Shown: positions 16,333-63,677 of the stretch, in pieces
Layout of the letters: each line of letters starts with the position of its first letter
How positions within the stretch are numbered: position 1 is the stretch's first letter
From: Spiractinospora alimapuensis
GTDB taxonomy: Bacteria > Actinomycetota > Actinomycetes > Streptosporangiales > Streptosporangiaceae
Direction of reading: 5' to 3'
DNA: 64,000 nucleotides
Assembly: GCF_018437505.1 (NCBI RefSeq)
Contig: NZ_CP072467.1
Location: 4,736,010-4,800,009, forward strand
Notes under the pieces: generated by a model
What the model was told of the DNA's origin: nothing
What the model saw: only the letters and a program-made list of their open reading frames with translations
Database searches by the model: none
Position numbers and translations under genes: made by a program

Positions 16333-16691
16333 TCTGGATTATCCCCCCCGATGGTGTCCGAGACGCATTAGGGGCTGATCCACGAAACATGCCCCAGAGA
16401 CGTCCCAGGCGAGACGACGTTACCGCCATAGTGGGTGGTGGGTCCCGTTTTCCCGAATGTTTCCTTCCGTGGAGTTACCCACGGTCCGCGCCCGGGATGT
16501 GTCCGAGCCTAGAACGCTTGCCGCTCGGGATAAACGGCCAGGTGGGGCCAGGTAACCGGATTCTTTCGAGCTTCCTACCGACAGCGAGTTCGCCGGCACG
16601 GACAGTGGTGTTCCCGGGGGTTCGGTGGCCCCGCCGTGCGCGCAGCGCACGGAAACGAAAGCCCCTCCCACAGCACCTAGACTTGGTCGGC
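16333..16691. promoter_or_regulatory. Divergent FkbM/ychF intergenic region
   Basis: 359 nt without a convincing gene. On the minus strand GATAAT (16338-16343) serves the FkbM gene. The ychF frame stays open upstream to 16389, but the translation there shows no OBG-family features, so I treat it as non-coding. No strong ychF promoter or riboswitch is recognisable. Confidence 0.5.
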
Positions 16692-21600: not shown

Positions 21601-22911
21601 TCATCGCATTTGAAGGTGTAGCAGGGGTCTGAATCCGCCGGTGTCGAGGAGAGACCGGAGGATGTGGTGGGCGAGGTTGCGGAAGCCCAGCGCGGCGCCG
21701 CGGAGGTGCTCGAGGCGGCCATTGATCGCTTCGGTGGGTCCGTTGCTGGTGCCGGGGCGGTCGAAGTAGGCCAGCACGTCCTCGGCCCGGCGTTTCAGGG
21801 TGCGGCCGAGCGTGATGACCTCGGTCAACGAGGCTGGAACGTCGCCTGCGAGGTCCTTGATCACTGCTGCGAGTTGCTGCTTCGCAGCAGCGCGATCAGG
21901 GTTGCGGTAAGCCTCCACGATCCGCTGGTAGATGCCCCAGGTGGCGTAGACCGCGGCATGCTCGTCTGCGGCGAACACGCTGTTCAGACGGTCGCACTGG
22001 CGATCGCTCAGGAGGCCTGCGCCAGTGCGGAGGACTCGACGTATCCCGTAGAGAGGATCCCCAGAGCGACCGCGGTGCCCGCAGGTGGCCTGTTGGATCC
22101 GTTGCCGGCAGCGGTCCAGTGCGTCACCGGCCAGGGCGACGACGTGGAAGGGGTCCATCACCGCTTCGGCCTGTGGGATCTCTTCCGCGGCGGCGGTCTT
22201 GAAGCCGGTGAAGCCGTCCATCGCGACGGTCTCGATCCCGTCCCGGAAGGTCTGTTCCTGCTGGTCGAGCCAGGTCTTGAACACCTTCTTCGAGCGTCCT
22301 GGGACCATGTCCAGCAGCCTCGAGGGGCCGGTGCCATCGCGGACCGGAGTCAGGTCGATGATTACGGTGACGTACTTGCTGCCGCCTCTGGTGTGGGACC
22401 AGACGTGCTCGTCAACGCCGAGCACGCGGACCCCGTCGAGCCGCGCAGGATCGTTGATGAGGAGCTGGGTGCCGGCCTCGAGGACCGCGTTGTTCACGGT
22501 GTGCCAGGCAGTGCCGAGGTTCTCGGCGACTCGTGCGATCGACATCCGGTCGATGACCACGCTCTTCAGCGCCCACAGCACTGCGTCGCGTGACAGCTTC
22601 GTGCGTGGCGCGGCAGCGGTCGTGGTGTCCTGGCGCCACACGGTGCAGCAGTCCGGACAGCGGTAGCGGCGCACTCTGACCTGCAGTATCGTCGGCCGCC
22701 ATCCGAGCGGGACGTGAACGATCGCCCTGGTCACCGTCCCTCGAGGCACACCTGTCTGACCGCAGCGATGGCACCACCGATCGTCCTCGAGGACCCGACA
22801 TTCCAGGACGCTGTGGTCGGGCTCGACGCGCTGGCCGGTGGCCGTGAGACCGAGCGTGCCCAGCCCACAGAAAGCATCGAGATCTGGGGACAAGAAGGTA
22901 GCGTTGGGCAT
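21601..22911 (-). CDS. ISL3-family transposase
   Basis: 436 aa. It has an N-terminal zinc-finger region (WCHRCG, RYRCPDCC), an HTH, and then the DDE domain with VLGVDEHVW, VAMDGFTGFK, DPFHVV and a C-terminal NGPTEAINGRLEHLR. This is the ISL3/IS204/IS1001 pattern and usual length. It is complete, so it could mobilise both the single IS and the composite unit. The stop codon lies within the inner terminal repeat. Confidence 0.95.
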   Translation of the reverse strand: MPNATFLSPDLDAFCGLGTLGLTATGQRVEPDHSVLECRVLEDDRWCHRCGQTGVPRGTVTRAIVHVPLGWRPTILQVRVRRYRCPDCCTVWRQDTTTAAAPRTKLSRDAVLWALKSVVIDRMSIARVAENLGTAWHTVNNAVLEAGTQLLINDPARLDGVRVLGVDEHVWSHTRGGSKYVTVIIDLTPVRDGTGPSRLLDMVPGRSKKVFKTWLDQQEQTFRDGIETVAMDGFTGFKTAAAEEIPQAEAVMDPFHVVALAGDALDRCRQRIQQATCGHRGRSGDPLYGIRRVLRTGAGLLSDRQCDRLNSVFAADEHAAVYATWGIYQRIVEAYRNPDRAAAKQQLAAVIKDLAGDVPASLTEVITLGRTLKRRAEDVLAYFDRPGTSNGPTEAINGRLEHLRGAALGFRNLAHHILRSLLDTGGFRPLLHLQMR

Positions 22912-33218: not shown

Positions 33219-33481
33219 GTGTCGGAGTGGTGTCGCCCGGGTGAATCCCGGATCCACATCCCCTGTGGTTGCTGGATTTCTCCGCTGTATCGGCCACTCC
33301 CGGATATCGTGATCAGTGCTGGTCAACGGGTGGCGGTGGCCGCCCCGTTGGGCTGTGAGACTTCACTCCCGTCCCGCCGCGCCCTGGGAAACTAGTGCGC
33401 ATTGGGGGTGTTTGGCCCTACCTTGTCCGGGTTGATTCGTGCAGCGCGGCACGATCCGATCTACCTGGAGTACGTACGTCG

Positions 33482-35059
33482 ATGAGCAGCAGACACCCAG
33501 CGCAGGACCATCGTGTCGACCCTGGGTGGGGGCTGTTCAACACGGTCGTGATCACCGCGGCGATCACCGGGCTGCTCGCCTACCCGCTCGCGCCGCGCCC
33601 CTACGATCTCGGTCGCGAGGTCGTCGGTGACCAGGAGCTCGCGCGCAACGTGTGGGTGGGGATGGAGGGAGACCGGGTCGGCTACCACGGTCTGGCGGTC
33701 GCGACTGTGGAACGGCTCCAGGAGGACCAGACCCACGTACGCGGGGCCGGCCTGGGGACCGAGGGAACCGCAGGCGAGCCCGTGGCGCCGGACACGCGCA
33801 TGGCCGCCAGCCCCATCGCGGGCGTGCTGCCGGGGATGATCCTCGCGGACATGGTCGAGCGCGACGAAGTGGCGCTCGACTCCACCGTGGGGGACCTGCT
33901 GCCCGAGCTCGACCCGGCCGATCCCGACCTCACGGACGTCACCATGGAGGAGCTCGGTACGCACACCTCCGGAGTGACCTGGACCGAAGCCCCGCTGCCG
34001 AACCAGTTGTGGGACCTGGCGACCAAACAGCCCTCGGACAAACCACGCTCGGTGTCGCACTTCCTGGAACGGGTCTCCACCGAGGCCGAGGTCGACGACG
34101 AGCGGCGCGGGGAGCGGGAGTACTCCCACACCGGGCTCAACCTGCTCGGACACGCGCTCGCCGCCGCAGCGGACCAGGAGTACGCCGACCTCGCGCGCGA
34201 ACGGATCTTCGCCCCGCTCGGGATGGAGGACACCGAGGTGTGGACGACGGCCACCGGTTGGTCACCGCCCCTGGTGCACGACGCCGACGTGGGGCGCCCG
34301 ATCCGCTTCACCAGCACCGAGGCCGACGGGCCGGCGGAGGGGCTGGTGACCACCGCCGCCGACCTCTCCTCACTGGTGAAGGCGATGATCGACGGCAGCG
34401 CCCCGGGCCACTCCGCGGCACTGCCCCGAACCGGCGACCCACGGGAGGGACCACAGCACGGGTTGGGCTGGCAGATCGAGAAGGTCGGCGACCACCTGAT
34501 CACGACCTACGGTGGGACCGCGTCCCGCAACGGCCACGCGGCCTGGATCGCGTTCTCCGGAAACCGGGGAGCGGTGGTCATGTCCAACACCCACCGCGGG
34601 GCGGAGGACATCACGCTGCGGCTGATGGGGGTGCGGGATCCGGACCGCGACGACAACCGGCAGGTGTTGCTCAGCTCCTGGGCCACCGTCCTGCCGACCC
34701 TGCTCCCGAGCGTGGCAGTACTCGCCTTCGCGCTGCGCCGGCGCCCAGGAGTCCGCTGGCGTCGCCAGACCGACCGGGCTGGTCTGGTCGCCTACTCGGC
34801 CATCGCGTCGTCCATCCTGACCTACACCTACCTGGTGGGATTCTGGCACCGGGTCCCGCCCTGGGTGTGGATCCTCGGCGTGGTCCTGACGGCGCTCGCC
34901 ATCGCTCTCGGCGTGCGCCGCTGGCCGGATCTCCCCGCCGTCCGAGGACCCCGCCGATGGCTGCGCCGACTCCTCCTCATCCCGATCACACTCGGGGCCC
35001 TGGGCGCGGTCCTCCTCCTCGGCCCCATGGCGGCCGACATGACGTCCAGCGTGCCGTAG
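33482..35059 (+). CDS. Membrane beta-lactamase-fold protein lacking catalytic motifs
   Basis: 525 aa from ATG 33482. An N-terminal helix precedes a beta-lactamase/class-C-like domain recognisable from ILADMVERDEVALDSTVGDLLPE, ELGTHTSGV, RERIFAPLGMEDTEVW and LGWQIEK. Three C-terminal TM helices follow. The SxxK lysine is absent (the aligned stretch is AASPIAGVLPG), YxN reads YSHTG, and the third motif is YGGTASRNG. It is therefore probably not a serine hydrolase. A binding or scaffold role in the cell envelope is possible. Confidence 0.85.
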   Translation: MSSRHPAQDHRVDPGWGLFNTVVITAAITGLLAYPLAPRPYDLGREVVGDQELARNVWVGMEGDRVGYHGLAVATVERLQEDQTHVRGAGLGTEGTAGEPVAPDTRMAASPIAGVLPGMILADMVERDEVALDSTVGDLLPELDPADPDLTDVTMEELGTHTSGVTWTEAPLPNQLWDLATKQPSDKPRSVSHFLERVSTEAEVDDERRGEREYSHTGLNLLGHALAAAADQEYADLARERIFAPLGMEDTEVWTTATGWSPPLVHDADVGRPIRFTSTEADGPAEGLVTTAADLSSLVKAMIDGSAPGHSAALPRTGDPREGPQHGLGWQIEKVGDHLITTYGGTASRNGHAAWIAFSGNRGAVVMSNTHRGAEDITLRLMGVRDPDRDDNRQVLLSSWATVLPTLLPSVAVLAFALRRRPGVRWRRQTDRAGLVAYSAIASSILTYTYLVGFWHRVPPWVWILGVVLTALAIALGVRRWPDLPAVRGPRRWLRRLLLIPITLGALGAVLLLGPMAADMTSSVP

Positions 35060-49766: not shown

Positions 49767-50750
49767 ATGGCGCGGAGATCCGCTGGGAAGCGGTCGCCTG
49801 CCGAGGCACCCAACGATTCCGTCGACGATGCCTGGGGTCCTGACGATGCGCCCACCCGCACCAAGACCAGGCCCCGCCGGCCGAGTCGTGCCTCGGGCGG
49901 ACGGTGGTGGGTGTGGGTTGGCCGGTTCGTGTTGTGGACGTTCCTGCTGGTCGTGATCGCCCTCGGTATCCTCTCGCTGGTCCGGGACGGATTCGCTCGA
50001 CCGTCCGTCGGAGGGGACAGCGCAGAAGAGACGGCCGAGGCCGCGTTCCCCGAGGCGGCGGCCGGCTCCTTCGCCATGGGGTTCGCCCAGGTCTACCTGA
50101 ACGCGGACGACGAGGACCGCGCCGAGGCCCTGGCCGCGTTCGTCGCCGAGGAGCACATCGACGCCCTGAGCGCGGACGGCGCCGCCCTCAGCGGTTCCAA
50201 CATCCAACTGTCCGGTGTCGACGCCGAGAACGACCAGCACGGGGTGGTGACCCTGGCCGCGGTCGTCAACGGCGAGCCCATGGGACTGGACGTCCCCATC
50301 TACGCTGACCATGACGGCGAATCCCTCGTGGTGTCCGGCCCCCCGGCACTTCTCGCCGCGCCACAGCTCGCGGACCTGGAGGAGGCCGAAGAGGTCGAGA
50401 CCGACAATGCGGCGCGTGACGAGATCCAGGACGACGTGGAGTCGTTCTTCGATGCCTACGCGGGCGAATCCGACCTACTGGACCGTTTCATCGCCCCCGA
50501 CGCGCAGGTGACCCCCCTCCCGGAGGATCTGATGACGTTCCAACGCCTGGACGACCTGACCGTGATCTCCGACCCCTCTGGGGAACCTGACGTCCGTGCC
50601 GCGCTGGCCACCGTTGTGTGGGGTGTCGCTGCTGATGAGCAGGACGCCCCCGCCGAACTGACACAGAGCTACCGAATCGAGGTGGTTCAGGATGGCTCCA
50701 ACTGGGTCATCCAGGACCTCCGCGGGGCTCCGCAAACGTTCGGGCGTTGA
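49767..50750 (+). CDS. TcpC-like conjugation protein
   Basis: 327 aa from ATG 49767 after AAGGGAGG. A basic cytoplasmic head, one TM helix (FVLWTFLLVVIALGILSLV) and two repeated NTF2-like outer domains (about 85-195 and 210-327) are visible. FAMGFAQVYLN in the first and YRIEVVQDGSNWVIQDLRG in the second are typical of the TcpC/VirB8-like family. TcpC is needed for DNA transfer in Gram-positive conjugative elements and recruits the other channel proteins at the membrane. It is the first gene of an operon running to the window end. Confidence 0.85.
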   Translation: MARRSAGKRSPAEAPNDSVDDAWGPDDAPTRTKTRPRRPSRASGGRWWVWVGRFVLWTFLLVVIALGILSLVRDGFARPSVGGDSAEETAEAAFPEAAAGSFAMGFAQVYLNADDEDRAEALAAFVAEEHIDALSADGAALSGSNIQLSGVDAENDQHGVVTLAAVVNGEPMGLDVPIYADHDGESLVVSGPPALLAAPQLADLEEAEEVETDNAARDEIQDDVESFFDAYAGESDLLDRFIAPDAQVTPLPEDLMTFQRLDDLTVISDPSGEPDVRAALATVVWGVAADEQDAPAELTQSYRIEVVQDGSNWVIQDLRGAPQTFGR

Positions 50751-50799
50751 ATCCGAGGAAGCCGACAATGTCCATCCACGTGATGGGGGCGTGACACCG

Positions 50800-51093
50800 A
50801 TGCTCCCCGAATCCCTCCAAGCCGCGACCGAAATCTCCAACGTGACATTACTCGCGGACGCCGACATTCCAGACACGGAAGGGTTGGCCGATTGGCTGCG
50901 CAGCTTCTTCGGCCCGCTCTTCCTGGTCATCGTCTCCATCGTCGCCATCTTTTTCCTGTTCACCAAGGAGATCACGAGGTTCGCCCAGTTCATCGTTCTG
51001 GCGATTTTTATCGGCATCGTCTTTTATGTGCCTGGCATCATTGAGGCGATGGCCCGTGGGATCGCGGCGGCGTTGGGAGTTGGCCCGGAGTAG
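50800..51093 (+). CDS. Small TcpD-like membrane protein
   Basis: 97 aa from ATG 50800. After a short head come two TM helices (FFGPLFLVIVSIVAIFFLF and FAQFIVLAIFIGIVFYVPGII). Size, topology and position between TcpC and TcpE genes match TcpD-type proteins of conjugation loci. The frame is open upstream into the end of the TcpC gene, but that portion lacks family features; a GTG at 50791 is an alternative start. Confidence 0.75.
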   Translation: MLPESLQAATEISNVTLLADADIPDTEGLADWLRSFFGPLFLVIVSIVAIFFLFTKEITRFAQFIVLAIFIGIVFYVPGIIEAMARGIAAALGVGPE

Positions 51094-51198
51094 TTGACAC
51101 CACATTCCGTAATCGACTCCGGCCGCCATTTCACGCAACGGAATGGATCCCTCCGGCCGCGGGCCGTGTGGGGCGAAGGATAGAAGGGAGGACAGGAA

Positions 51199-54100
51199 GT
51201 GGATCTGCCCACGTACACCAGCATCTGGCGGATCGAAAAGCGGCTGTACAAGCTGTACGACTTCCGTCTCCCGTTCCCCGTGCCCGTCGTCACGCTGGGT
51301 GTGACGGTCGCGATCTTCGTGGCGTGGGCCGTGCTGATGCGGCTCATCGGGGTGGAGTTCGCGCCCCCCGTCGGGCACATCGTGTGGATCGTCCCACCGT
51401 TGGTGTTGGCCTTCCTCGCCACGCGCACCTTCGTCGAGGGCAAGCGGCCCACTGAGCTGGCGGTCTCCTACGTGCGGTACTCCTCGGAGGCCGCGGTCTA
51501 CTGCCGACTGGCCCCGGAGCGTGAACCTCGCGAGATCGTGGTGACCACGCGGGTATGGCACCGCCACCCCCAGGCACCCCCGCTCCCTGTGGTCCGCGGC
51601 GCGCGGCGACAGGACATCCAGGCGGCGCAGACTCACGAACTCGGCCGCGACCGCCCGCGTCAGATGGAACTCTCACCGGAGTTGGAGGAGTTCCCGCCCC
51701 TGGCCGAGCCGGTCGCGCAACCGGTGGGTGCGCTGACGACCCTCCCCGGTGACGGGCCGCCGGCCGAGGACGCCCGCCCCGAAGAGGCTCCGCTCGTCGA
51801 GGCCCTGCCCGCCGACGAGGGGGCGGAAGTCGAGGCCCTCGACGCACCCGCCCCCGCGACTCAGGCCGAGGACGTGGCCGAGACGCCTGCCCCCTCGGCC
51901 CCCGAACCGCGTGCGCCGATCCGGGCCCGCCTCACCCTGCCCGAGCCCGGGGAGAGTGACGGCCCGGCACCCACCTTCGCTCCGCACGACGCCGAGCTGA
52001 GCGCGGAAGACGCCATCGAAGTCGACGGCGAGGCGCCCAGCCAGGGACTCGGGGACGAGGAGCCCGCACCGGAACGTCGACGCCAGCCGTCCATGGTCGT
52101 CCGCTCGCTGCGGTACTTCGGCTTCGCCCTTCCCCGCCAGGACGACTCCGGGCCGCTCCCCGCCGCGCAGCGGGACAACCTGGGGACGTCGAAGCGGGGC
52201 GAGCAGGCCCCCGACCCGTTCTCCTCCGAGAAGCCCGCTACCGGCGTGACGCCCGCGCGCGGGACCGTCCGCTCAGAACCCCCCGCAGAGAAAGTACGCA
52301 GCGCTCCACCCCTGGCGGGTGACGCCGAGGACCTCGCGATCGAGGACGACGACGTCGACAGTGTCGACTGGTTCTCCGACCTGCGCCGCTCCTCCGGTGA
52401 CACTCCCTGGCGCCTGCGGTCGAAGGGAGCCTACGCTTCCAGCGACACCGCCCCCCTCCCGCCACCGACACCACGGTCGAAAGCCGCGGGGGAGGACACA
52501 GGTGTGGAGGAATCCGCGAGGGAACGCGCCCAACGCGCGATCGAAGAGCAGGAACGACGAGAACAGGAAGAGCTGGACCGACGACGACGCTCGGTGGCTG
52601 CGCGCCGCCGCGCGGAGGAACTGATGTCGTCGACCCCCGCCGAGGAGCGGGACACGTGGCTTGGCCGCGCCGCGGCCGAGGGCGAGGACGGGGAGGTCGA
52701 CCTGGGCGGCGAGCGGGCGCGCGCACAGTTGCGGGGCCGTGCCCAGGGGGCCATGACGGCGCGGGAACACCAGCGGGAGATCGAGGCGGTTTCCGAGTCC
52801 GAGCCCGCCGAGGACGAGCAGGTTCCCGTCCACGAGCGGGAGCCCGCCACCCCGCCGGCCGTGCGGGAACAGGCGCGCGGGTTGGGTATGCCCGCCGAAC
52901 CAGAGGCGGCCGAGGCTGCCGACATTGAGGCTGAGGACTCGGGACCGAAGCAGCGACCTCACGCCGCGCCGTGGGAACTGCCGGCGGACTACTGGGACGA
53001 GAAGGACCCGGAGAGGGCGGCGCGGCAGCCAGCAGCCAAGCCGGTCCTGGAGCTCGACCACGCCACCGACGAGCAGCAGAGCTTCGCGGAGTCGTCCGGA
53101 CTTCCGGCGGGTGCCCGGGACACGGACGAGGGAAGCCCCCTGGAGGGGCTGGACACCACCGACGCGGCGGACGACGTCCCGCCATCGTGGGAAACGCATG
53201 TGTCCCGTCGGACGCCTGGCCCCGCCGAGGAGCGGGTATCTCGCTCCAGCACCGCCGAGGACCGACAAGAACTCGGCGAGGATGCGGCTCCCGAAGGCGA
53301 CGTTTCCCAGCTCTCCGTACGCGAGGACGGACGAGAAACCCGCGATGACGAGGTGTCCGTGGGCCGGTCGGTTGCGGGTGCCGACGCTGTCGCGGACACC
53401 GTGTCGCCGCCGGAGGATTCGGGTAGCGCGACGGTGACGGGCACCGCGAACGTCGAGAGTAACGGGGCTTCGCCCCGCGCCCAGGAGGATGGCCCGCAAG
53501 CCGGCGAGGACCTGGCCCCCGAAGGCGACGTTTCCCAGCTCTCCGTACGCGAGGACGGACGAGAAACCCGCGATGACGAGTCGTCCGCTGGCCGGCCGGT
53601 TGCGGGTGCTACGACCGACGGGTCCTCGGCCAGTGCCCAGGACCGACCGGAGACCGCGCACGGCACCGACCACACGCCGCCCACGCACGCGGGGTGGACG
53701 GACACGCCAGGCACCGGCGACACCGAGGGTGTCGAGGGGAGTGCTGCGGCGGATTCCGAAGTTGGGCCCCCGGTTTCCAGGGGTAGTCGGGAGGACGCTT
53801 CGGCGCATATCGCGGCCGCGGGGTTGGGGACAACCTCCGGTTCCGCTCCCGAAACCGACGCCGAGGACGCGGACCTCCGCCAGTCGTCCACTCGACGCGA
53901 GGCCGCCTCGGACCTGCCCGCCGACTCCGGCCCGGCGGCCGAGGTCTCGAGCTCCGCGACACCGGAGCCGAACACGGCCCCCGACGAGGACGCCGCACGC
54001 GCGGATGCCTCCCCGTCTGACCACGACGCCGCGTTGACGTCGAGCACCGCCGCCGCCAACACACCGGCAGCGGCTACGGACGCCACCGACGGCGCTGGTG

Positions 54101-56286
54101 GCGCTGACGGTGCCGAGGCGAGTGCTGTGGCTGATCCCGAAGTTGGGCCCCCGGTTTCTAGGGGTAGTCGGGAGGACGCTTCGGCGCATGTCGCGGACGC
54201 GGGGTTGGGGACAACCTCCGGTTCCGCCCCCGAAACCGACGCCGAGGACGCGGACCTCCGCCAGTCGACCGCCGCTGACGAGTCCGCTGCGGACGCGCAC
54301 CGTAGTCAGGAGGAGGGGCTCGCCGCGTTGCGGAGCCTGGGGGTGGACACTCCCGTCGGGGGGACACCCAGCAGGGCCGAGGCCGACGAGCCGGAGTCCG
54401 CGCGCGCTGCCAAGCCGGAGCTGCAACTGGACCATGGGACCGGCGAGCACCTCAGCATGGTGGCGTCCTCCGGGCCGAACCGGTCCGCCGTCGAACCACC
54501 CGAGGCCGAGCCCGCCCCTGAGCCCAAGCCTGAGCTCCAACTGGACCACGGAACCGGGGAGCACCACAGCCTGGCCGCCTCCTCCGGCCCCAACCGGGTA
54601 TCCGGCAGCCAGCCCGAGGCCGACGACGAGAACACCACCGCCGGCCACGAGGCCATGGACCCCGACATCACCCCGATCGCGACCAACGGATTCCCGCGTC
54701 GTGGCGGGCCCAGCCGCGAGCAGCACTACCCGCACGTCATGCCGAAGCCGCCGCTGGAGCTGGACCACGCGACCGACGAGCAGCGCAGTTTCGCCGAGTC
54801 CATGTCCGCGCCGGACCGCGCGGAGGACTCCGCCCGCCGCACCATCGAGGAGATCGAGGCGGCGGAGAACGCCGCACTGTTGGCCCGACAGAAGGCCGCG
54901 AAGTCGGCGGCACCCGCCCCAGCTGACCCCGCCGAGCGGTCCGACCCCGCCCCGACGGAGGCGCCGGAGCGGCCTGCCCGCATCTCGCGCTCGGGTCGAC
55001 TGTCGCGCGCCATGCGGTCCATGCCCACCGGGCCCCAGTCCGAGGCCCTGCCGCTCGACCCCGCCGAGGTTCTCGCCGCGGAGCAGGCCGCGCGGGCCGC
55101 GAACGGGGACACCGGTCCCGATGACGCCCAGCCCGCCGCACCCGCCGAGCGGCCGCCCAGCGCCGACGAGCCCAAGGACGAGCACAAGCCGGCCGTGCGC
55201 AAGGACAAGGTCCGTGGCGCGAAGCCCCTGACCCAGCTCGACCACGGAACCGGGGAACAGTCCGCCCTGACCGCGTCGGGCGGCAACAACTCCGCCGCGC
55301 GCCCGCCCACCCGCACCAACAGCGCCGCGAACTCCACCGGCCGGCCGGCGACCAACGGGCGCCCCGCGTCGGCAAAGCCGTCCGAGCCGGCCCAGGACCG
55401 TCAGGCCGCGGAAACCGGGGGACGCAAGACGCCCACCAGTGGATGGCGGCGCTTCGCCCAAGCGATCACCGGCGCCCGCAACGAACCCACCCTGGACCTG
55501 CCGCAGGAGTACGCCGAGCGGCTGCGGGCGCCGATCGCCCGCCCGCAGAGCGTGGTGGTGCTCGGCTGTACCGGGGGAGCGGGCCAGAGCATGACCGCCC
55601 TCCTGCTGGGGCACACCCTGGCGTCCTACCGCGACGACCGCGTGGTCGCCGTCGACGCCAACCCGAGCCAGGGCGGGATGTCGCGCCGGGTCCACAACGG
55701 CACCGGCGAGACCCTCACCTCCCTGCTCGCCACGGGTGGGGACCTCACCGGTTACCAGTCCATGCGCGGCTTCACCACCGTGACCGCCACCGGGCTGGAA
55801 GTGGTGGGCACCAAGGATGATCCCTACGTCCAAACCCTCGATGACGAGGACTACTCCGGGCTGGTCGAACTCCTGGGCCGCTTCTACACCATCAGCCTGG
55901 TCGACCCGGCCGCCACCGGAGTCGCCCGGGCGCTCCCGGTGGCGGATGCGCTGGTTCTGGTGGCCCCCGCCAGCACCGACGCCGCCCGCTCCGTGGCGAT
56001 GACCTTCGAGTGGCTGGACGGCCACGGCTACGGTGGGCTGCGTTCCCGCGCGGTCCTCGTCCTCAACGGCGTCAGCAAACGCACGGTGGACGACGTCGCC
56101 GCCGCCGAACGCATGGCCCGTGGCCAGTGCCGCGCCGTGGTGCGCACCCCGTGGGACGAGCACGTCAGCGACGGCCGGGGTGAGGTCGCGGTGAACAGTC
56201 TCCGCCCGATCACCCGCAAGGCCTACGGTGCGTTGGGCGGTGTGGTCGTCGCCGGCCTCGCGGCGTCGGAGGAGGCCCGTCGGTGA
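51199..56286 (+). CDS. TcpE-like/MinD-like fusion protein, 1695 aa
   Basis: GTG 51199 follows GGAGGACAGG. Residues 1-130 are a TcpE domain: YTSIWRIEKRLYKLYDF, a hydrophobic pair (VVTLGVTVAIFVAWAVL, HIVWIVPPLVLAFLAT) and FVEGKRP. Residues 130-1430 are acidic, Pro/Ala/Glu-rich and probably disordered. They include five LDH(A/G)T(D/G)E motifs (near 615, 1072, 1111, 1184, 1345) and two long internal repeats. Residues 1440-1695 form a MinD/ParA-type domain with VVLGCTGGAGQSM (Walker A lysine replaced by Gln), VVAVDANPSQGGMS and VDPAATG. Fusion of these two domains is unusual. It probably links the channel to a partition-like switch. Confidence 0.85.
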   Translation: MDLPTYTSIWRIEKRLYKLYDFRLPFPVPVVTLGVTVAIFVAWAVLMRLIGVEFAPPVGHIVWIVPPLVLAFLATRTFVEGKRPTELAVSYVRYSSEAAVYCRLAPEREPREIVVTTRVWHRHPQAPPLPVVRGARRQDIQAAQTHELGRDRPRQMELSPELEEFPPLAEPVAQPVGALTTLPGDGPPAEDARPEEAPLVEALPADEGAEVEALDAPAPATQAEDVAETPAPSAPEPRAPIRARLTLPEPGESDGPAPTFAPHDAELSAEDAIEVDGEAPSQGLGDEEPAPERRRQPSMVVRSLRYFGFALPRQDDSGPLPAAQRDNLGTSKRGEQAPDPFSSEKPATGVTPARGTVRSEPPAEKVRSAPPLAGDAEDLAIEDDDVDSVDWFSDLRRSSGDTPWRLRSKGAYASSDTAPLPPPTPRSKAAGEDTGVEESARERAQRAIEEQERREQEELDRRRRSVAARRRAEELMSSTPAEERDTWLGRAAAEGEDGEVDLGGERARAQLRGRAQGAMTAREHQREIEAVSESEPAEDEQVPVHEREPATPPAVREQARGLGMPAEPEAAEAADIEAEDSGPKQRPHAAPWELPADYWDEKDPERAARQPAAKPVLELDHATDEQQSFAESSGLPAGARDTDEGSPLEGLDTTDAADDVPPSWETHVSRRTPGPAEERVSRSSTAEDRQELGEDAAPEGDVSQLSVREDGRETRDDEVSVGRSVAGADAVADTVSPPEDSGSATVTGTANVESNGASPRAQEDGPQAGEDLAPEGDVSQLSVREDGRETRDDESSAGRPVAGATTDGSSASAQDRPETAHGTDHTPPTHAGWTDTPGTGDTEGVEGSAAADSEVGPPVSRGSREDASAHIAAAGLGTTSGSAPETDAEDADLRQSSTRREAASDLPADSGPAAEVSSSATPEPNTAPDEDAARADASPSDHDAALTSSTAAANTPAAATDATDGAGGADGAEASAVADPEVGPPVSRGSREDASAHVADAGLGTTSGSAPETDAEDADLRQSTAADESAADAHRSQEEGLAALRSLGVDTPVGGTPSRAEADEPESARAAKPELQLDHGTGEHLSMVASSGPNRSAVEPPEAEPAPEPKPELQLDHGTGEHHSLAASSGPNRVSGSQPEADDENTTAGHEAMDPDITPIATNGFPRRGGPSREQHYPHVMPKPPLELDHATDEQRSFAESMSAPDRAEDSARRTIEEIEAAENAALLARQKAAKSAAPAPADPAERSDPAPTEAPERPARISRSGRLSRAMRSMPTGPQSEALPLDPAEVLAAEQAARAANGDTGPDDAQPAAPAERPPSADEPKDEHKPAVRKDKVRGAKPLTQLDHGTGEQSALTASGGNNSAARPPTRTNSAANSTGRPATNGRPASAKPSEPAQDRQAAETGGRKTPTSGWRRFAQAITGARNEPTLDLPQEYAERLRAPIARPQSVVVLGCTGGAGQSMTALLLGHTLASYRDDRVVAVDANPSQGGMSRRVHNGTGETLTSLLATGGDLTGYQSMRGFTTVTATGLEVVGTKDDPYVQTLDDEDYSGLVELLGRFYTISLVDPAATGVARALPVADALVLVAPASTDAARSVAMTFEWLDGHGYGGLRSRAVLVLNGVSKRTVDDVAAAERMARGQCRAVVRTPWDEHVSDGRGEVAVNSLRPITRKAYGALGGVVVAGLAASEEARR
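53290..53352 (+). repeat. 63-bp direct repeat, copy 1
   Basis: Identical to 53518-53580 and encodes PEGDVSQLSVREDGRETRDD plus one residue. Lies in the disordered middle of the TcpE-like fusion. Confidence 0.85.
53518..53580 (+). repeat. 63-bp direct repeat, copy 2
   Basis: Second exact copy of 53290-53352, 228 bp downstream and in the same frame. Recombination between copies would remove 76 codons without a frameshift. Confidence 0.85.
53752..53886 (+). repeat. 135-bp near-identical repeat, copy 1
   Basis: Closely matches 54133-54267 (a few base changes) and encodes EVGPPVSRGSREDASAH followed by GLGTTSGSAPETDAEDADLR. Both copies are in frame. Confidence 0.8.
54133..54267 (+). repeat. 135-bp near-identical repeat, copy 2
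   Basis: Second copy of 53752-53886, 381 bp (127 codons) downstream, so deletion between copies would also preserve the frame. Confidence 0.8.
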
Positions 56287-56489
56287 CCACCCCCCAGCCC
56301 CACCCCCTCGCCCCGCCTCCATCCGCCACTCGACGGAATCGCCTCGTCCGCCCGGCAGCCCAGCCGAGCGGAGCCGGGGCGTCTCAGGGCGCCGTCAGGT
56401 GGCGGGCCGGCACAGCACGCGTTAAACAGGACCTTGGAACCCGCCTCTCCCGCCCCCCGGCGGGGGTATCCACGGAGGAAAACCGATGA
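56283..56489 (+). CDS. Small coupled conjugation-operon protein
   Basis: 68 aa, Pro/Arg-rich (MTTPQPHPLAPPPSATRRNR), without recognised domain. The support is its position: its GTG overlaps the upstream TGA (GTGA) and its own TGA overlaps the next ATG (ATGA). It therefore fills the gap exactly and would couple translation of the flanking genes. It could instead be a non-coding spacer, as GGAGGA before 56486 can serve the next gene alone. Confidence 0.5.
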   Translation: MTTPQPHPLAPPPSATRRNRLVRPAAQPSGAGASQGAVRWRAGTARVKQDLGTRLSRPPAGVSTEENR

Positions 56490-58957
56490 ACGTCCGGTCG
56501 AGAGGCGCCAGCCGTCTGGCGGTGCGCTACTTCGACGACCGCATCCTGCTCAGCGACACCTTCGCCTGGGCGTACTACCGTCTGCCAACGGTTTCCTTCG
56601 AGTTCTGTACCCCCACCGAACGCGAGGCCCTGGCCGCCAACATCACCATCGCCCTGGCCGCGATCCGGATGAACGACGCCGAGGTGCACCTGCGGATCGC
56701 ACACCGCACCTACCCCGCGGTCACCTGGGCGACCCGCCTCAACGACACCTCCGACCAGGGGCCTGGCTGGCACGACTACCTGGACGAGATCTACCGCCAC
56801 GTGTGGGAGAAGGACTTCTGGACCAAGGAGGTCTACCTGGGGGTCCGTCTCGGTCAGCGTGGCATGCGGGCCCAGCTCGAGGGCGGGGTGTTCGGCCAGT
56901 TCGTCAACGCCTACCAGCGCACCGAGCAGGTCCTCGGCCTGGAGGACGACGCGGTGGACGCCCGCGAGATCTCCCGCTGGACCGACCAGTCCGAACGGCT
57001 CGGCCGTGCCCTCGCCTCCTCCTCGCTGCGCGCCCGGCACGCCTCGGCGACCGAACTGTCGTGGCTGCTGCGCCACGCCGTCACCGGTCCCATCGAGGAG
57101 CCCCGGCGTTCGGCCGCCCGCCGCCGTGCGTGGGGGCAGGGCGAGATCGAGGCACTGGTCGACGGGACGATCGTCAACGGCCGTACGTCCCTGCGGCTGG
57201 AGCAGCCCGGCGGCAGCGCCCACGTCGCCTACCTGCCGTTCTCCCGCTTCCCCGAGGTCATGCCCTTCCCCGAGGGCGAGCCCTGGATGCACTACAGCGA
57301 TCAGCTCCCCTTCCCCGTGGAGTTCAGCCTGCGGATGAAGCTGGTCCCGCCCGCCCAGGCCAGCAAGGACGTCGGCCGGCGCCTCGCCCACGCCCGCGAC
57401 ATGGACGCCCACATCCGCGAGGCCGGGGTGGAGGCCCCCATCGCCCTCGCCGAGCAGATCGACGCCGCCCGCGCGCTCGAACACGGCATCACCAAGGAAC
57501 GCCTCCCGTTCGTCTACGGGTGGCACCGTCTGATGGTGTCCGCTCCGACCGAGGACCTCCTCACCCAACGCGTGGAAGCCGTCATCGAGCACTACCGCGA
57601 CATCGGGATCGACGTCGTGAACTCCACCGGTGACCAGTTCGCGTTGTTCTTGGAGTCCCTGCCCGGGGACCGGATCCGACTCAACTCCTACGTCCAACGC
57701 CAACCCCTGCGCACTATCGCCGGAGGCATGCCCACCGCCACCGTGCAGTTGGGCGACGGCGTGGACTCCCACGGTGCCGGCTGGGTCGGCCCCTACATCG
57801 GCGAGACGTCCGGCCGTTCCCGCTCCGTGGTGCACTTTGACCCGATGCTGGCAGCGGCCCGCAACCGCCCCACCGCCATCGCCATCACCGGCGAACCCGG
57901 CGGCGGCAAGACCACCCTCGCGCTGCTGTTGCTCTACCAACTGGCGCTGCGCGGCATCACCGTGGCCGCCATCGACCCCAAGGGCGACGCCGCAGCGCTC
58001 GTGGAACTCCTCCAGAGCCGCGGCCGCAACGCCCGCATCATGAGCCTGGACTCCGCCGACGCCGGACTGCTCGACCCGTTCGGCTTCGGCGACGACCTGC
58101 CCAGCCGCAAGACCATGGCCACCGAGACCCTGCGCCTCCTCCTGCCCCGCATGAGTGAGGAACGCGAGTCCGCGATGATCCAGGCCGTGGCCGCGGTGGC
58201 GAACCAGCCGCGCCCCAGCTTGTTAAAGGTGGTCAACCACCTGGAGCGCTCCCCGGACGCGGCGTCGAAGAACCTCGGCGCGGTCCTGCGCTCCATGGCG
58301 GAGATGCGGCTCGCGCGGCTGTGCTTCGACCCCCAGGGCGACGCCCAGATCGACACCGAGGGCTGGACCACTGTGTTCACCCTGGGTGGGCTCACCCTGC
58401 CTGACGCCACGATCCACCGCGACGACTACTCCTACGAGCAGCGCCTCAGCGTCGCGCTGCTCTACCTGGTGAGCCAGTTCGCCCGCCGACTCATGAACGG
58501 CCTCGACCGGCGCCTGCCCAAGGCGATCTTCCTGGACGAGGCGTGGGCGGTCACCTCCACCCCCGAGGGCGCCAAGCTGGTGCCCGAGGTGTCCCGGATG
58601 GGCCGCTCCCGCAACACCGCCCTCATCCTGGTCAGCCAGAATGCCGGTGACCTCCTCAACGAGCAGGTCACCAACTGTCTGTCCAGCGTGTTCGCCTTCC
58701 GCTCCTCCGAACGCGGCGAGGTGGAGAACGTGCTGAGCCTGCTCGGGGTGGACTCCAACGACGAACACCGCGGCACGCTGCGCAGTCTGGGTAACGGAGA
58801 GTGCATCTTCCGTGACCTGGACGGGCGTGCCGGGCGGGTCGGTGTGGACCTGGTGTCCGACCAGCTACTGCACTGGCTCGACACCAACCCCACCCGTGAA
58901 CACCCCGACCACCTGACCGGTGCCATCACCGGTGTGAGTCCCGAGGCCCTGGAGTGA
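56486..58957 (+). CDS. VirB4/TcpF-like conjugation ATPase
   Basis: 823 aa from ATG 56486 after GGAGGA. The N-terminal half (about 1-430) is the VirB4-type domain. The C-terminal half is a RecA-like motor with Walker A GEPGGGKTTLALLLL near 470, AIDPKGD, Walker B KAIFLDEAW near 680 and ILVSQNAGD. It powers the conjugation channel as a cytoplasmic hexamer. Its stop overlaps the next GTG. Confidence 0.9.
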   Translation: MNVRSRGASRLAVRYFDDRILLSDTFAWAYYRLPTVSFEFCTPTEREALAANITIALAAIRMNDAEVHLRIAHRTYPAVTWATRLNDTSDQGPGWHDYLDEIYRHVWEKDFWTKEVYLGVRLGQRGMRAQLEGGVFGQFVNAYQRTEQVLGLEDDAVDAREISRWTDQSERLGRALASSSLRARHASATELSWLLRHAVTGPIEEPRRSAARRRAWGQGEIEALVDGTIVNGRTSLRLEQPGGSAHVAYLPFSRFPEVMPFPEGEPWMHYSDQLPFPVEFSLRMKLVPPAQASKDVGRRLAHARDMDAHIREAGVEAPIALAEQIDAARALEHGITKERLPFVYGWHRLMVSAPTEDLLTQRVEAVIEHYRDIGIDVVNSTGDQFALFLESLPGDRIRLNSYVQRQPLRTIAGGMPTATVQLGDGVDSHGAGWVGPYIGETSGRSRSVVHFDPMLAAARNRPTAIAITGEPGGGKTTLALLLLYQLALRGITVAAIDPKGDAAALVELLQSRGRNARIMSLDSADAGLLDPFGFGDDLPSRKTMATETLRLLLPRMSEERESAMIQAVAAVANQPRPSLLKVVNHLERSPDAASKNLGAVLRSMAEMRLARLCFDPQGDAQIDTEGWTTVFTLGGLTLPDATIHRDDYSYEQRLSVALLYLVSQFARRLMNGLDRRLPKAIFLDEAWAVTSTPEGAKLVPEVSRMGRSRNTALILVSQNAGDLLNEQVTNCLSSVFAFRSSERGEVENVLSLLGVDSNDEHRGTLRSLGNGECIFRDLDGRAGRVGVDLVSDQLLHWLDTNPTREHPDHLTGAITGVSPEALE

Positions 58958-59358
58958 AGGCCGCGGGCACGCCGACCCAGCCGTCGCGGCGCGGCCCAAC
59001 CGGCGCGACCGCGGGGAGTCCCGTTGATGTCCTCTCCTCTCGGGAGGAGGGGGTTCCGCCCCACGCGGGGCGGGTTACCTGTTTCGTCGCCGGTTGCGGA
59101 AGGGAGGGACCCGTGCCGTCCGACACCAGCCTCGCGGGCATCGCCCGGGTGCGCTCGGGCCGCGACTGGACCAGCGGCCATGGCGTGGTCCGCGGCGGTC
59201 ACACCACGGTCGTACCAGGTGCGGCAGACCTGCCACGGCCCCACCGAACGCGTCGAACACACCAACGCAAGCCGGCCGGGACCCGAGGCGTGAGCGAGTC
59301 GCGCAGCGGAATCCTCCCTGGCCCGAGGTTCGGGACCATCTCCGGGAGGTTCTGGTGA
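58954..59358 (+). CDS. Coupled small protein of the conjugation operon
   Basis: 134 aa with no recognised domain. It overlaps the upstream gene by GTGA at 58954 and the downstream gene by GTGA at 59355-59358, the same pattern as the 56283 gene. An internal GTG at 59113 after GGGAGG would give 81 aa (MPSDTSLAGIARVRSGRDWT). Codon bias shifts to another frame around 59215-59290, so the gene may be wrong or frameshifted. Treat as tentative. Confidence 0.42.
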   Translation: MKAAGTPTQPSRRGPTGATAGSPVDVLSSREEGVPPHAGRVTCFVAGCGREGPVPSDTSLAGIARVRSGRDWTSGHGVVRGGHTTVVPGAADLPRPHRTRRTHQRKPAGTRGVSESRSGILPGPRFGTISGRFW

Positions 59359-61805
59359 GCGGGCACGCCAAACGTCGGACGGCGCGTACGAGCGCGCGCC
59401 CCGACCGGGACCACACCCCGAGCGCACCGCACGGGCGGGCCGAGCGACCAGCCCGGCGTCGGCTGCGCCGGGGGCTGCTGCTGTGCGTGCTGGCGGCGGG
59501 GTTCCTCCTCACCCCCATGGGCGCGGCGCAGGCCCAGCCCAGCATCCCGGGCTGTGAGGGCGAACCCGCCCCCATGCCACAGACAGCCGACTCCGGCTCC
59601 GACGGCCTGCTCGTCCCTCCGCAGTCCGCCGCGTCCATCGCCGAGTCCCCGGACGGTCTCCCCCCGGACGCCAGCCTCTACGGCCAGTACGGCACCGCCG
59701 GCACTCAGTGGCATACCATCCGCGACTCCTGCGTCGACAAGCTCGGCTCCTCCGCCCAGGCCACCCTCGCCAGCACCGCCTGGGACCTGTCCAAGACCAT
59801 CAATCAGTCCACGATCACCGTCTACCAAGCCGCCACCTCCGACGGGCTACTCGACAACTTCAACCCGATGGTCGAGAGCGTCATCGTCGAGCTGCGCGAA
59901 GGGCTCTGGCGGCCCCTCATCCCCGCGATCGTCGTGCTCGGCGCCCTGTGGCTCGGCTGGTACGGGCTGATCCGCAAGCGGGTCACCCTCACCTTCGAGA
60001 GCACCATCTGGATGGTGCTCGCCGTCGCCATGGGCATGTGGGTGCTCGTCCAGCCGGGACAGGTACTCAACCTGGCCGGCACCGCCGTGAACTCCGGCAG
60101 CCAACTCGTCAACGCCGCCGTGGGGCAGGTGTCCGTCCCGGGCGTGTCCTCCCAGTGCCCAGCCGGAGCACCGGAGATGGAACGCGCGGACTGGGAGAAC
60201 GAGAGCGACTTCGCCGTCCGCCAGAACACCCAGATGCTGTGGTCGGGACTGGTCTGCCGCCCCTGGGTCGCGGGGACGTTCGGCAATGGTGATTACGCGG
60301 AGGATGCTGCGGCTTCCTACGGTGTGGAGCTCCTCGAGGCCCAGTCCATCAGTCGCATCGAACAGCAACAGATCGCCGATGGAGAACTGGATCAAGCCGA
60401 ACTCCTAACAGATAAGCAGGAAGCCTACGCGGACATCGCCGACGACATCGAGACGGCCTACCCTGGCGTTTTCCCGCTCTTCTCCGGTGACCAGGCCGGG
60501 GAGCGCCTCGGCGTGGCGACCCTCGCGCTGTTCGCCTCGATCTTCGCCGGGGGCCTGATCCTGGCCGGTGCGATCGCGCTGATCGTGCTCAAGATCGGCT
60601 TCCTGCTGCTCTTATTGCTGGCACCGGTCTTCCTGCTCATCGGTATCCATCCCGGCTTCGGCAGGGTGATCCTGTTGCGCTGGGTGGAGATGATGTTCGG
60701 GCTCCTGCTGAAGCAGGTGTTCGTCATCCTGCTCATCTCGCTGCTGGTGATGGCCTACGGCATGGTGATGGCCACCGGGCTGAGCTGGGGCCTGCAGATG
60801 ATCCTGCTGTCGCTGTTCACGCTGGCCCTTTTCGTCTACCGCAAGCCGTTCGCGCACCTGTTCGCCTCGGTGAACGCCAACACCTTCACCTCACGCATGG
60901 TCAACGACGCCGTGACCAGCTCGGTGCTGAGCCGCAGCGCCTCCGCGCTGCCGCCCGTCGCCTACCTGCGGGCACAGAAGTGGGGCCTGCGGCGCGCTCC
61001 ACAGCTCGGCGCGGCGGCGGCGGGAGCGGCCGCCGCCACGGGTGCGGTCACGGGCGGCGGTGGCGGCGAGGGAGAGGCGGGCCCACAGGCGGCCCCGGGA
61101 GCCGACACCGGCGCGAACGAACCCATGGGGGTCCGGTCCGACGCGCGACGACAACGCGGACAGGCCGGCTACGGGCGGGCACGAGCGGGAGCCGCGCCTC
61201 CGCCACTCTTCTCCGGTCAGGGTGCTCGGGTGACCGAGATGCCGGCGGCCGGACGTTCCGGCAAGGACGCTCCCCGACTCAGTGAAGCCGCCTCTGTCGG
61301 TTACAACGGCGGTGGCGACAGCGGTCAGGTCCCACCCCGGCCCGCCGGCGGGTGGACCGGGCGCGGTAGTGCCGGTTGGTCGGACCTCTTCGGCGCCCCC
61401 AGTGGGGGAGCGGGTGGTTCGGCGGGCCGGCCCGGCGGCGGCTGGAGCGGCGGTGGCGGGGGTGACGCGCCGGCGCCGCGTGACGTTCCCGCCCCACGAG
61501 GAGGATCCGACGGTCGTGCCCCGCGCCCCGAGGGCGGCGGATGGGGGCGTGGCGGCCCACGCCGGTATGGCGGTGGGGGGGCCCGCTGGGGCGGTGGCGC
61601 GGGGCGCGGTGCTCCTCGTCCGGCGCCGCGCGGCGAGCCCCGCGGATCCGGCGGGGATCGCGGGGGTTCCGGTGGTGGCTGGTTCGCTGGATCCGAGTCC
61701 CGCCGGGATCCGCACACCTCCAGCCCCTTCTGGGCCCGCGACGGCAGCCGCCGTGACCGCCCCCGCCGCGACGTGCCGTTCTGGCTGCGAGACGACGATG
61801 TGTAG
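59355..61805 (+). CDS. Polytopic VirB6/TrbL-like conjugation membrane protein
   Basis: 816 aa from GTG 59355 after GGGAGG. A signal-peptide-like helix (GLLLCVLAAGFLLTPMGAAQA) is followed by an outer loop with cysteines. TM helices include LIPAIVVLGALWLGWYGLI, FESTIWMVLAVAMGMWVLV, ATLALFASIFAGGLILAGAI and LLLLLAPVFLLIGIHPGF. Residues beyond about 600 are a Gly/Pro/Arg-rich cytoplasmic tail (many GGG and RGGP runs) ending DVPFWLRDDDV. Topology and position match the TcpH/VirB6-like pore component. Confidence 0.82.
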   Translation: MSGHAKRRTARTSARPDRDHTPSAPHGRAERPARRRLRRGLLLCVLAAGFLLTPMGAAQAQPSIPGCEGEPAPMPQTADSGSDGLLVPPQSAASIAESPDGLPPDASLYGQYGTAGTQWHTIRDSCVDKLGSSAQATLASTAWDLSKTINQSTITVYQAATSDGLLDNFNPMVESVIVELREGLWRPLIPAIVVLGALWLGWYGLIRKRVTLTFESTIWMVLAVAMGMWVLVQPGQVLNLAGTAVNSGSQLVNAAVGQVSVPGVSSQCPAGAPEMERADWENESDFAVRQNTQMLWSGLVCRPWVAGTFGNGDYAEDAAASYGVELLEAQSISRIEQQQIADGELDQAELLTDKQEAYADIADDIETAYPGVFPLFSGDQAGERLGVATLALFASIFAGGLILAGAIALIVLKIGFLLLLLLAPVFLLIGIHPGFGRVILLRWVEMMFGLLLKQVFVILLISLLVMAYGMVMATGLSWGLQMILLSLFTLALFVYRKPFAHLFASVNANTFTSRMVNDAVTSSVLSRSASALPPVAYLRAQKWGLRRAPQLGAAAAGAAAATGAVTGGGGGEGEAGPQAAPGADTGANEPMGVRSDARRQRGQAGYGRARAGAAPPPLFSGQGARVTEMPAAGRSGKDAPRLSEAASVGYNGGGDSGQVPPRPAGGWTGRGSAGWSDLFGAPSGGAGGSAGRPGGGWSGGGGGDAPAPRDVPAPRGGSDGRAPRPEGGGWGRGGPRRYGGGGARWGGGAGRGAPRPAPRGEPRGSGGDRGGSGGGWFAGSESRRDPHTSSPFWARDGSRRDRPRRDVPFWLRDDDV

Positions 61806-61885
61806 CCACGGGTGGGTTCCCCATCGCCGGCGGGCGCCCGAGCCCCATCGACCCGTAGCCCGCCCCGACGTTGGAAAGTCCCCTC

Positions 61886-62503
61886 ATGGCTAGGCAGATG
61901 TCCGAGCGCCAACAGCGGCTTGTGCTCGCCTTGGTCGTCGTCGGCCTGATCGCGTTCGGAGTGTACCTCTACTTCAGCACCATGGCCGAGGACGAGGCGG
62001 AGCGGGCCGAGCAGGACGCCGCCGACGACGCGGCCCCCACGCCGATGCAGGTCACCCCAGAGGACGACCTGGACTTCTTCGAGTGGGTCCCCTACTCCGA
62101 GGCGGACTTCCACGACGCGGCGCTCACCGCACGCGAGTTCGCCGCCGCCTACGGCACCTACGACGCCACCGAGTCCGACGCGGAGTACGTGGACCGGCTC
62201 GCCGCGCTCGCCACCGACGACTTCGCCGAGACGCTGGAGCGCGGGTCCGGCGGTGGCGCGGGCCGCGCCGAACTGGAGGAGCAGGAGACCGAGGCCGAAG
62301 GCTACGCCGAGACGGTCGAACTGCGTTCCTTCGACGACGAATCCGTCACCTTCGTGGTGGACGCCCAGTCCATCGCGGAGGACGACGAGGGCTCCCGAGA
62401 GAGTCTGGGCGAGTTCGCCGTGACCGTTGTCCCCGACGGTGACGACTGGCAGGTCTACGACTTCCAGCCCGCGGATGCCGGTGACTGGGGGGAGGAGCTC
62501 TGA
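61886..62503 (+). CDS. Single-pass membrane accessory protein of the conjugation operon
   Basis: 205 aa from ATG 61886 after GGAAAG. One TM helix (LVLALVVVGLIAFGVYLYF) and a very acidic outer part carrying an NTF2-like fold signature (ALTAREFAAAYGTYDATESD, EYVDRLAALATDDFAETL, EFAVTVVPDGDDWQVYDFQP). This is similar in kind to the outer domains of the TcpC-like protein, so it is probably a second VirB8-like component. A start 15 nt upstream (TTG 61871) is less likely. Confidence 0.75.
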   Translation: MARQMSERQQRLVLALVVVGLIAFGVYLYFSTMAEDEAERAEQDAADDAAPTPMQVTPEDDLDFFEWVPYSEADFHDAALTAREFAAAYGTYDATESDAEYVDRLAALATDDFAETLERGSGGGAGRAELEEQETEAEGYAETVELRSFDDESVTFVVDAQSIAEDDEGSRESLGEFAVTVVPDGDDWQVYDFQPADAGDWGEEL

Positions 62504-62510
62504 CTCAGGC

Positions 62511-63677
62511 ATGACCCTCTTGTCCCCCTTCGTTCGCCCCACGCCCGACGACCGCGGTTCCTGTGCCACCCGACTCGCCATCGGGATCGGCCTGGTGATG
62601 GTCGGCACGATCGTGGCCGCGCTGGCCATCGTCTCCGTCAGCACGGTCTCCTCCAACATGCCCGGGCTCCTCACCGGGGGAGTGGAGTGTCGTGCCACCG
62701 GCGAGCAGCCGGGAGCCTCCGACTACGCCCAGGACTCCATCCCGGAGAACTACCTGGAGATCTACCAGGAGGCGGGGGAGGACCGCGGAATTCCGTGGAA
62801 CGTGCTGGCGGCCATCGGCCAGGTGGAGACCCACCACGGCCGATGGGAGGGGCCTGGCGTGACCGAGGGCTGGAACGAGGCCGGTGCGGCCGGTCCGATG
62901 CAGTTCGGGACCCAGGCGGATCTCGCGGCCACCAACACCTGGGGCGGCGAACCGGTGATGGCCACCGAGGACCGCCCCGAGCAGGGCTACGGCGTCGACG
63001 GCAACGACGACGGGGTCGTGGACGTCTACGACCCCGAGGACGCGATCCCCGCCGCGGCCGACTACCTGATCGCCAACGGAGCCCCGGACGACCTCCCCAA
63101 CGCGATCTTCGCCTACAACCGGGCGTGGTGGTACGTGGAGGACGTACTGGACTGGGCCGACAGCTACGCCGACGGCGACTTCACGGTCGACGGGCCCACC
63201 CAACGGGCGGTGATCTGTACCGAGCGGGAGGACGGCGGCCCGATCGGCGAGGCACCGGACGACCTCTCGCAGGCCGTCGTGGACTGGGCGCTGGCACAGC
63301 GCGGCAAACCCTACCTGTGGGGCGGGACCGGGCCGGACGCCTTCGACTGCTCTGGACTCACCCTGAAGGCGTTCGAGCAGGTGGGCGTGACGATTCCCCG
63401 GGTGGCGCGGGACCAGTGGGCACACGGGCCGGAGATCCCACAGGGCGAGGAACAGCCGGGGGACCTGGTGTTCTTCGACACCCCGCACCAGGACGGCGGA
63501 GCGGGGCCGGGGCACGTCGGCATGGTGGTCGGCGACGGGCTGCAGGTGGAAGCTTGGTGCACGGACTGCGGGCCGATCGCCACCCGGCCCTACGACGACC
63601 CGAACCGCTCGGACATACTCGGGTTCACCCGGCCGCTGGAACACGAGAACGCCAAGGCAGAGCTCGGCCTGGACTAA
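62511..63677 (+). CDS. Bifunctional lytic transglycosylase / NlpC-P60 peptidase
   Basis: 388 aa from ATG 62511. After one TM helix (IGIGLVMVGTIVAALAIVSV) comes a transglycosylase domain with Glu106 in IGQVETHHGR, GPMQFG and AIFAYNRAWWYV. An NlpC/P60 domain follows with Cys280 in DAFDCSGLT and His335 in GPGHVGMVVGD. Such TcpG/VirB1-like enzymes open peptidoglycan for the conjugation apparatus. Both active sites are intact. The gene follows the previous one by 7 nt. Confidence 0.93.
   Translation: MTLLSPFVRPTPDDRGSCATRLAIGIGLVMVGTIVAALAIVSVSTVSSNMPGLLTGGVECRATGEQPGASDYAQDSIPENYLEIYQEAGEDRGIPWNVLAAIGQVETHHGRWEGPGVTEGWNEAGAAGPMQFGTQADLAATNTWGGEPVMATEDRPEQGYGVDGNDDGVVDVYDPEDAIPAAADYLIANGAPDDLPNAIFAYNRAWWYVEDVLDWADSYADGDFTVDGPTQRAVICTEREDGGPIGEAPDDLSQAVVDWALAQRGKPYLWGGTGPDAFDCSGLTLKAFEQVGVTIPRVARDQWAHGPEIPQGEEQPGDLVFFDTPHQDGGAGPGHVGMVVGDGLQVEAWCTDCGPIATRPYDDPNRSDILGFTRPLEHENAKAELGLD

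Follow-up and report, generated by a model that had tools for sequence, protein, structure and literature searches.

A TcpE domain tethered to a degenerate MinD-like fold in a conserved chromosomal T4SS-like locus of Streptosporangiales

The chromosome of Spiractinospora alimapuensis carries a gene that appears to encode, in a single chain, a TcpE domain of the kind found in conjugation channels and a ParA/MinD-like domain with an altered P-loop. This raises the question of whether the chain is genuine, whether it belongs to a conjugative element and what a MinD-like head could do when it is fixed to a channel protein. The question was addressed with the 64 000-nucleotide stretch of DNA that contains the gene (the window; coordinates refer to it, and to its forward strand unless indicated) and with related loci of other actinobacteria.

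The open reading frame at 51199-56286 begins with a GTG codon, placed 6 bases after a Shine-Dalgarno-like GGGAGGA (51186-51192), and its 1695 codons join a TcpE domain, a disordered linker and a MinD/ParA fold in a protein of 1695 amino acids. The TcpE domain (amino acids 5-103; 51211-51507) belongs to PF12648, with a score of 68.6 bits against a gathering cut-off of 29.9 (E = 6.9e-19), and is regarded as a VirB3-like membrane hairpin on the basis of a FEMS nomenclature review, which identifies TcpE as most probably the counterpart of VirB3 in its system (PMC12857230). It is followed by the linker (amino acids ~112-1420; 51532-55458), recognized by its composition and probably cytoplasmic, then by a conserved basic segment, GWRRFAQAITG (55441-55473), defined by alignment and helical in the AlphaFold model, and finally by the MinD/ParA fold (amino acids 1447-1692; 55537-56274). 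The initial annotation had described TcpE and a MinD-like domain in one chain, separated by some 1300 disordered residues. Both elements of that description stand: the reading frame is single in the window, both domains are encoded at one locus in 38 of 38 genera, and the tether consists of ~1310 low-complexity residues predicted to be disordered. On the reverse strand, a 1349-amino acid open frame (52273-56322) lies opposite the linker; it most probably arises from the GC-rich codon composition and is no gene.

Forty loci were fetched, and the main set consists of the 38, one per genus, that encode both domains. The fusion occupies one open frame in 36 of these genera and extends across a frame break in the other two (L035 and L067). 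Of a further 80 named loci, from Nocardiopsis, Streptomonospora, Thermobifida, Actinomadura, Thermomonospora, Actinoallomurus and others, 60 have the fusion in one frame, 15 are truncated by a contig end and 5 are without an in-frame TcpE. TcpE was present in 147 of 151 genomes of the order, mostly in long open frames; the named relatives, together with Nonomuraea gerenzanensis, indicate that this order is Streptosporangiales. Among 247 genomes of the class no fusion was found outside this group, TcpE occurring only in the window's own family. A frame error joining two genes had been raised at the outset as an objection, and separate TcpE and MinD genes do exist on plasmids (described below), although nothing in the window itself speaks for such an artefact. 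We consider a frame error or misassembly ruled out, with a residual probability that is practically nil, because GC content at third codon positions stays at 0.79-0.91 along the whole reading frame and because the same one-frame fusion recurs in 36 independently assembled genera. In two loci from a third family of the order (L065 and L066, in genomes G004 and G006), TcpE is diverged and not fused, and VirB4 is only 24% identical; their system is probably a different, mobile T4SS.

The gene order of the locus is TcpC, a small membrane protein, TcpE-MinD, VirB4, TrbL, a 210-amino acid protein and NlpC/P60, and each of the seven genes was found in 35-38 of the 38 loci, several absences being due to stretch ends. 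In the window, TcpC (VirB8-like; PF12642) lies at 49767-50750 and was found in 38/38 loci; the small two-helix membrane protein at 50692-51093 (likely start near 50800) is likewise present in all 38, with a median identity of ~70%. The gene immediately downstream of the fusion is virB4 (VirB4/TcpF ATPase; 56486-58957; AAA_10, E = 4.5e-67), an arrangement conserved in 38 loci and typical of TcpE. Its Walker A motif, GEPGGGKTT, is intact and invariant in 38/38 loci; therefore the channel motor looks functional. A match of VirB4 to the anti-phage protein mad8 most likely reflects shared P-loop ATPase homology, and a defence function was discarded. Then follow the TrbL/VirB6-like channel protein (59094-61805, start uncertain; PF04610, E = 2.1e-6), the conserved 210-amino acid protein with one N-terminal membrane segment (61871-62503; at the locus in 35/38) and a cell-wall hydrolase with NlpC/P60 and weak SLT domains (62427-63677, start likely ~62508; PF00877, E = 4.8e-21). 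The usual upstream neighbour is ychF, located within 7 kb in 33 of 38 loci, and rmuC and other housekeeping genes are also nearby. In the window, ychF is at 16389-17786 and ~32 kb of other genes (17800-49700) separate it from TcpC, compared with a few kb in most relatives; among them are an ISL3 transposase (21601-22911), a beta-lactamase-fold protein (33395-35059), a RibD_C protein and a solute-binding protein.

AlphaFold gives the C-terminal part of the protein (residues ~1447-1692) a MinD/ParA fold with a pLDDT of 89.6, and the best PDB matches of this fold are ParA, FleN, Soj and MinD (Foldseek, E = 1.8e-10 to 1e-7). Pfam CbiA matches the window sequence with an E-value of 0.011 only, and 35 of 36 aligned homologues match it, the best at 4.5e-7. 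The Walker A region reads L-G-C-T1458-G-G-A-G-Q1463-S (degenerate P-loop G-C-T-G-G-A-G-Q-S at 55564-55590), where the canonical sequence of relatives is KGGVGKT. The replacement of the catalytic lysine by glutamine, already pointed out in the initial annotation (TGGAGQS), was confirmed and is fixed across the clade; the deviant motif has lost its signature lysine as well (KGG to TGG, Thr1458), which that account had not mentioned. Conservation of the glutamine had been suggested as a check: 39/39 fused rows have it, as do 80/80 rows of the second set, the latter being partly Q-biased since one of its two search patterns contained Q. All 39 rows conform to the consensus LGC(T/S/A)G(G/S)AGQ(S/T); TGGAGQ[ST] stands in the fused clade where deviant Walker A ATPases have KGGxxK[ST]. 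Among 25 unfused actinobacterial relatives, by comparison, 23 have KGGVGKT or KGGAGKT, one has RGGAGKT and one is unaligned at this place. Switch II has changed from D-x-G-T-G (D-C/S-G-T-G in relatives) to D-P-A-A in all fused rows (DPAA, 55903-55914 in the window), and the aspartates of both switch regions are kept, that of switch I being Asp1486 (DANPS, 55654-55668).

The fused MinD domains form one clade (37/37 rows; rooted support only 0.74) and show strong purifying selection despite their degeneration. About 50 columns are invariant across 36 rows, and in 14 close pairs dN/dS was 0.04-0.18 in the MinD domain and 0.05-0.20 in TcpE, against 0.34-0.66 in the linker. The pairs were picked by MinD identity, which favours low MinD values, yet within these same pairs the linker values are far higher.

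The linker is of low complexity (charge-hydropathy score -0.11), with 13% order-promoting residues versus 45% in TcpE and 31% in MinD. Its sequence diverges fast among relatives and its length varies from 352 to 1679 amino acids; for that of the window, a random-coil estimate gives a radius of gyration of ~14 nm and a mean end-to-end distance of ~35 nm. In genera on the Nocardiopsis side, the linker contains a repeated motif, P-x-L-[QE]-LDHGTGE-[HQ], usually in 2-6 copies. A motif search found five in the window: LDHATDEQ (53053-53076), LDHGTGEH (54427-54450), LDHGTGEH (54541-54564), LDHATDEQ (54760-54783) and, next to the MinD fold, LDHGTGEQ (55237-55260). The last copy lies 66-109 amino acids upstream of the P-loop (56 motif-bearing sequences). 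LDHGTGE is confined to this linker (26/26 matches in 8 genomes; a control pattern gave 0), which rules out, for these 8 genomes, a tag common to other proteins. Since it is present in only 14-15 of 38 genera, the motif is inessential to the architecture. AlphaFold left the copy next to the MinD fold undocked on it (motif pLDDT about 50).

The same channel also exists in split form. It was found on plasmids of Nocardiopsis changdeensis and N. exhalans (NZ_CP074136 and NZ_CP099838; L299 and L300), with identities of 71% and 74%, respectively, for VirB4 and 62% and 55% for TcpE. Here TcpE is a gene of its own, coding for 158 or 169 amino acids, and MinD is a separate gene with a canonical IKGGVGKTT. 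Each plasmid also encodes a MobF relaxase and a VirD4-like protein, and that of N. changdeensis has in addition a separate parAB pair; MOB-suite typed both as 'non-mobilizable' despite the annotated mobF relaxase. Homologues with separate TcpE and MinD genes and a canonical lysine had been named beforehand as an observation that would speak against the fusion; they do occur on these plasmids, and the chromosomal fusion is left standing. The plasmid channel may descend from the chromosomal one: in the VirB4 tree the plasmids are placed beside one Nocardiopsis row (94/95), but the AU test does not reject a single clade of chromosomal rows (P = 0.19), which would leave either direction of descent conceivable. 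The plasmid MinD groups with the canonical relatives, outside the fused clade, so its being the direct ancestor of the fused domain is unsupported. The channel is thus associated with a MinD-like partner both as a fusion and as a separate canonical protein. Other MinD family relatives sit in ESX loci between EspG and EccD, the usual position of EspI. On the Iamia plasmid NZ_CP050950, a T4SS operon that also has SCO6880-type, VirB4-like and VirD4 genes, and is unrelated to the TcpE-MinD channel, starts with a stand-alone canonical MinD-like gene (L292, 2817-3812). With partners at ESX, Iamia and Nocardiopsis systems, a MinD-family protein thus recurs with actinobacterial secretion systems.

The initial annotation had placed the chain in a dedicated conjugation machine, with ICEs as the expected setting, and this context was not borne out. 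TcpC, TcpE, VirB4 and TrbL are homologous to components of conjugation systems, so that the VirB4 and channel proteins of a conjugative element are present at the locus, and the sister channel sits on plasmids with MobF and VirD4. However, no relaxase or coupling gene was recognized among the conserved locus genes (MOBF and VirD4 were examined), and a mobile, variable location is contradicted by the chromosomal site, beside ychF or rmuC in most loci, and by the occurrence in nearly every genome of the order. The conserved position and near-universal presence largely rule out an ICE context for the chromosomal form, and we judge it very unlikely that the locus is part of a mobile conjugative element. 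VirD4-type genes were found in 37 of 61 genomes and were absent from 24; in five fused genomes without one, a search for relaxases of the MOBF class found none. FtsK-type genes were present in 6/6 genomes tested and in no case inside the locus. The channel may conceivably work without a coupling protein; alternatively, a VirD4 or FtsK-type protein encoded at another site might assist it in trans. Genes for a VirD4-type protein and for a MOBF relaxase lie ~140-160 kb before the start of the window (G000:C1:4575026-4576363 and 4596972-4598045), in what seems to be a second, separate conjugation module.

Comparison with known systems shows familiar parts. TcpE of pCW3, ConC of ICEBs1 and OrfE of ICESt3 resemble the fusion in having a PF12648 domain, in being encoded just upstream of virB4 and in being accompanied by TcpC, VirB4, VirB6 and a cell-wall hydrolase, but they are single-domain proteins on mobile elements, whereas in the fusion a 1300-amino acid tether and a MinD fold are added to the domain, and its chromosomal locus occurs almost throughout the order. 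The nearest sequence relatives of the fused MinD domain, the EspI/MinD-ParA proteins of ESX (T7SS) loci, have disordered N-terminal tails and, in several cases, a GWRR-type lead segment as in the fusion; unlike it, they are unfused, T7SS-linked and have a canonical KGGVGKT. The fusion itself lies in a T4SS locus, and ESX loci were the setting of these relatives only. The Nocardiopsis plasmid proteins share the channel and a MinD-family partner and differ in the separate genes, the canonical lysines, the MobF and VirD4 on the plasmid and a MinD outside the fused clade. VirC1 sets the precedent of a ParA-like protein by which substrates of a T4SS are positioned (PMC4949242). VirC1 of Agrobacterium and TadZ/CpaE are ParA/MinD-like and direct secretion or pilus machines to the cell pole, but they are separate proteins, neither being fused to VirB3, and VirC1 recruits the relaxosome. 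According to a report on Patescibacteria (PMC12102498), these bacteria have a monoderm-type T4SS that, like the Streptosporangiales locus, is chromosomal, lineage-wide and mostly without relaxase, and that is inferred to be co-opted; they belong to another phylum, and the abstract of that report mentions no fusion.

In the reading to which we give about an even chance, TcpE is the VirB3-type subunit of a chromosomal T4SS-like channel that is passed on by vertical descent, and the MinD-like domain covalently joined to it is an adaptor that does not cycle. Two hydrophobic stretches with basic flanks suggest that TcpE crosses the membrane as a two-helix hairpin whose ends both face the cytoplasm, and it would be located next to VirB4. 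Because both ends are predicted to be inside, the tether and the MinD head should be cytoplasmic, and the earlier proposal that the tether spans the envelope is unlikely. The tether, of 350-1680 residues, would instead let the head range through a broad region of cytoplasm around the channel without leaving it. Permanently attached and probably deprived of the usual ATP dimerization cycle, the head may be a constitutive docking or positioning device rather than an oscillating ATPase; candidate targets are VirB4, a cell-tip landmark or a substrate, and covalent attachment would replace ATP-regulated recruitment. Positioning is a plausible candidate role. A folded partner that belongs to the system may dock on the repeated LDHGTGE motifs.

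A constitutive adaptor is favoured because the ATP-sandwich cycle should be out of reach for a head that lacks both lysines. A different possibility is that the domain binds ATP in spite of the K-to-T and K-to-Q changes and is a nucleotide-regulated, perhaps non-hydrolysing, switch or dimer. The retained fold and switch aspartates are consistent with this, as are McdA (SGGQGKT) and BcsQ (RGGVGTT), which are listed as ParA-like members with altered motifs (PMC9178275), but the loss of both lysines together with the D-P-A-A switch II in all fused rows goes further than in McdA, and we consider this reading unlikely, if with some weight. The head might also sense energy state or substrate and switch the channel on or off in the manner of EspI. 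EspI acts as a regulator, and the relatives in ESX loci are at its usual place; an energy sensor would, however, need nucleotide binding, which looks crippled in the fused domain, and such a role appears distinctly improbable. Decay into a functionless remnant, to which the loss of catalytic residues might point, is ruled out by the purifying selection seen in the dN/dS values and invariant columns, and is extremely unlikely. Extending the adaptor reading, we propose with somewhat less than even confidence that a domesticated, vertically inherited, relaxase-less T4SS is a core machine of Streptosporangiales, and that the catalytically dead ParA/MinD head which its VirB3 subunit carries on a long motif-bearing tether takes the place, covalently and without need of ATP, of the separate ATPase of the plasmid channel.

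In open-access text, no description was found of TcpE with MinD in actinobacteria, nor of a T4SS in Nocardiopsis or Actinomadura. The parts are known; their combination, a VirB3 protein with a fixed and apparently dead ParA-type head in an order-wide, chromosomal, relaxase-less T4SS locus, seems new to the literature covered. ParA/MinD proteins are thought to place machines through ATP-driven cycling. Here, a close relative is wired into a secretion channel with the cycling chemistry invariantly lost, and the fused form and the split plasmid form lend themselves to a comparison that asks what a type IV secretion machine gains from ATP cycling. The locus also suggests that a T4SS-like machine, probably with no part in conjugation, has been conserved across a large group of antibiotic-producing actinomycetes.
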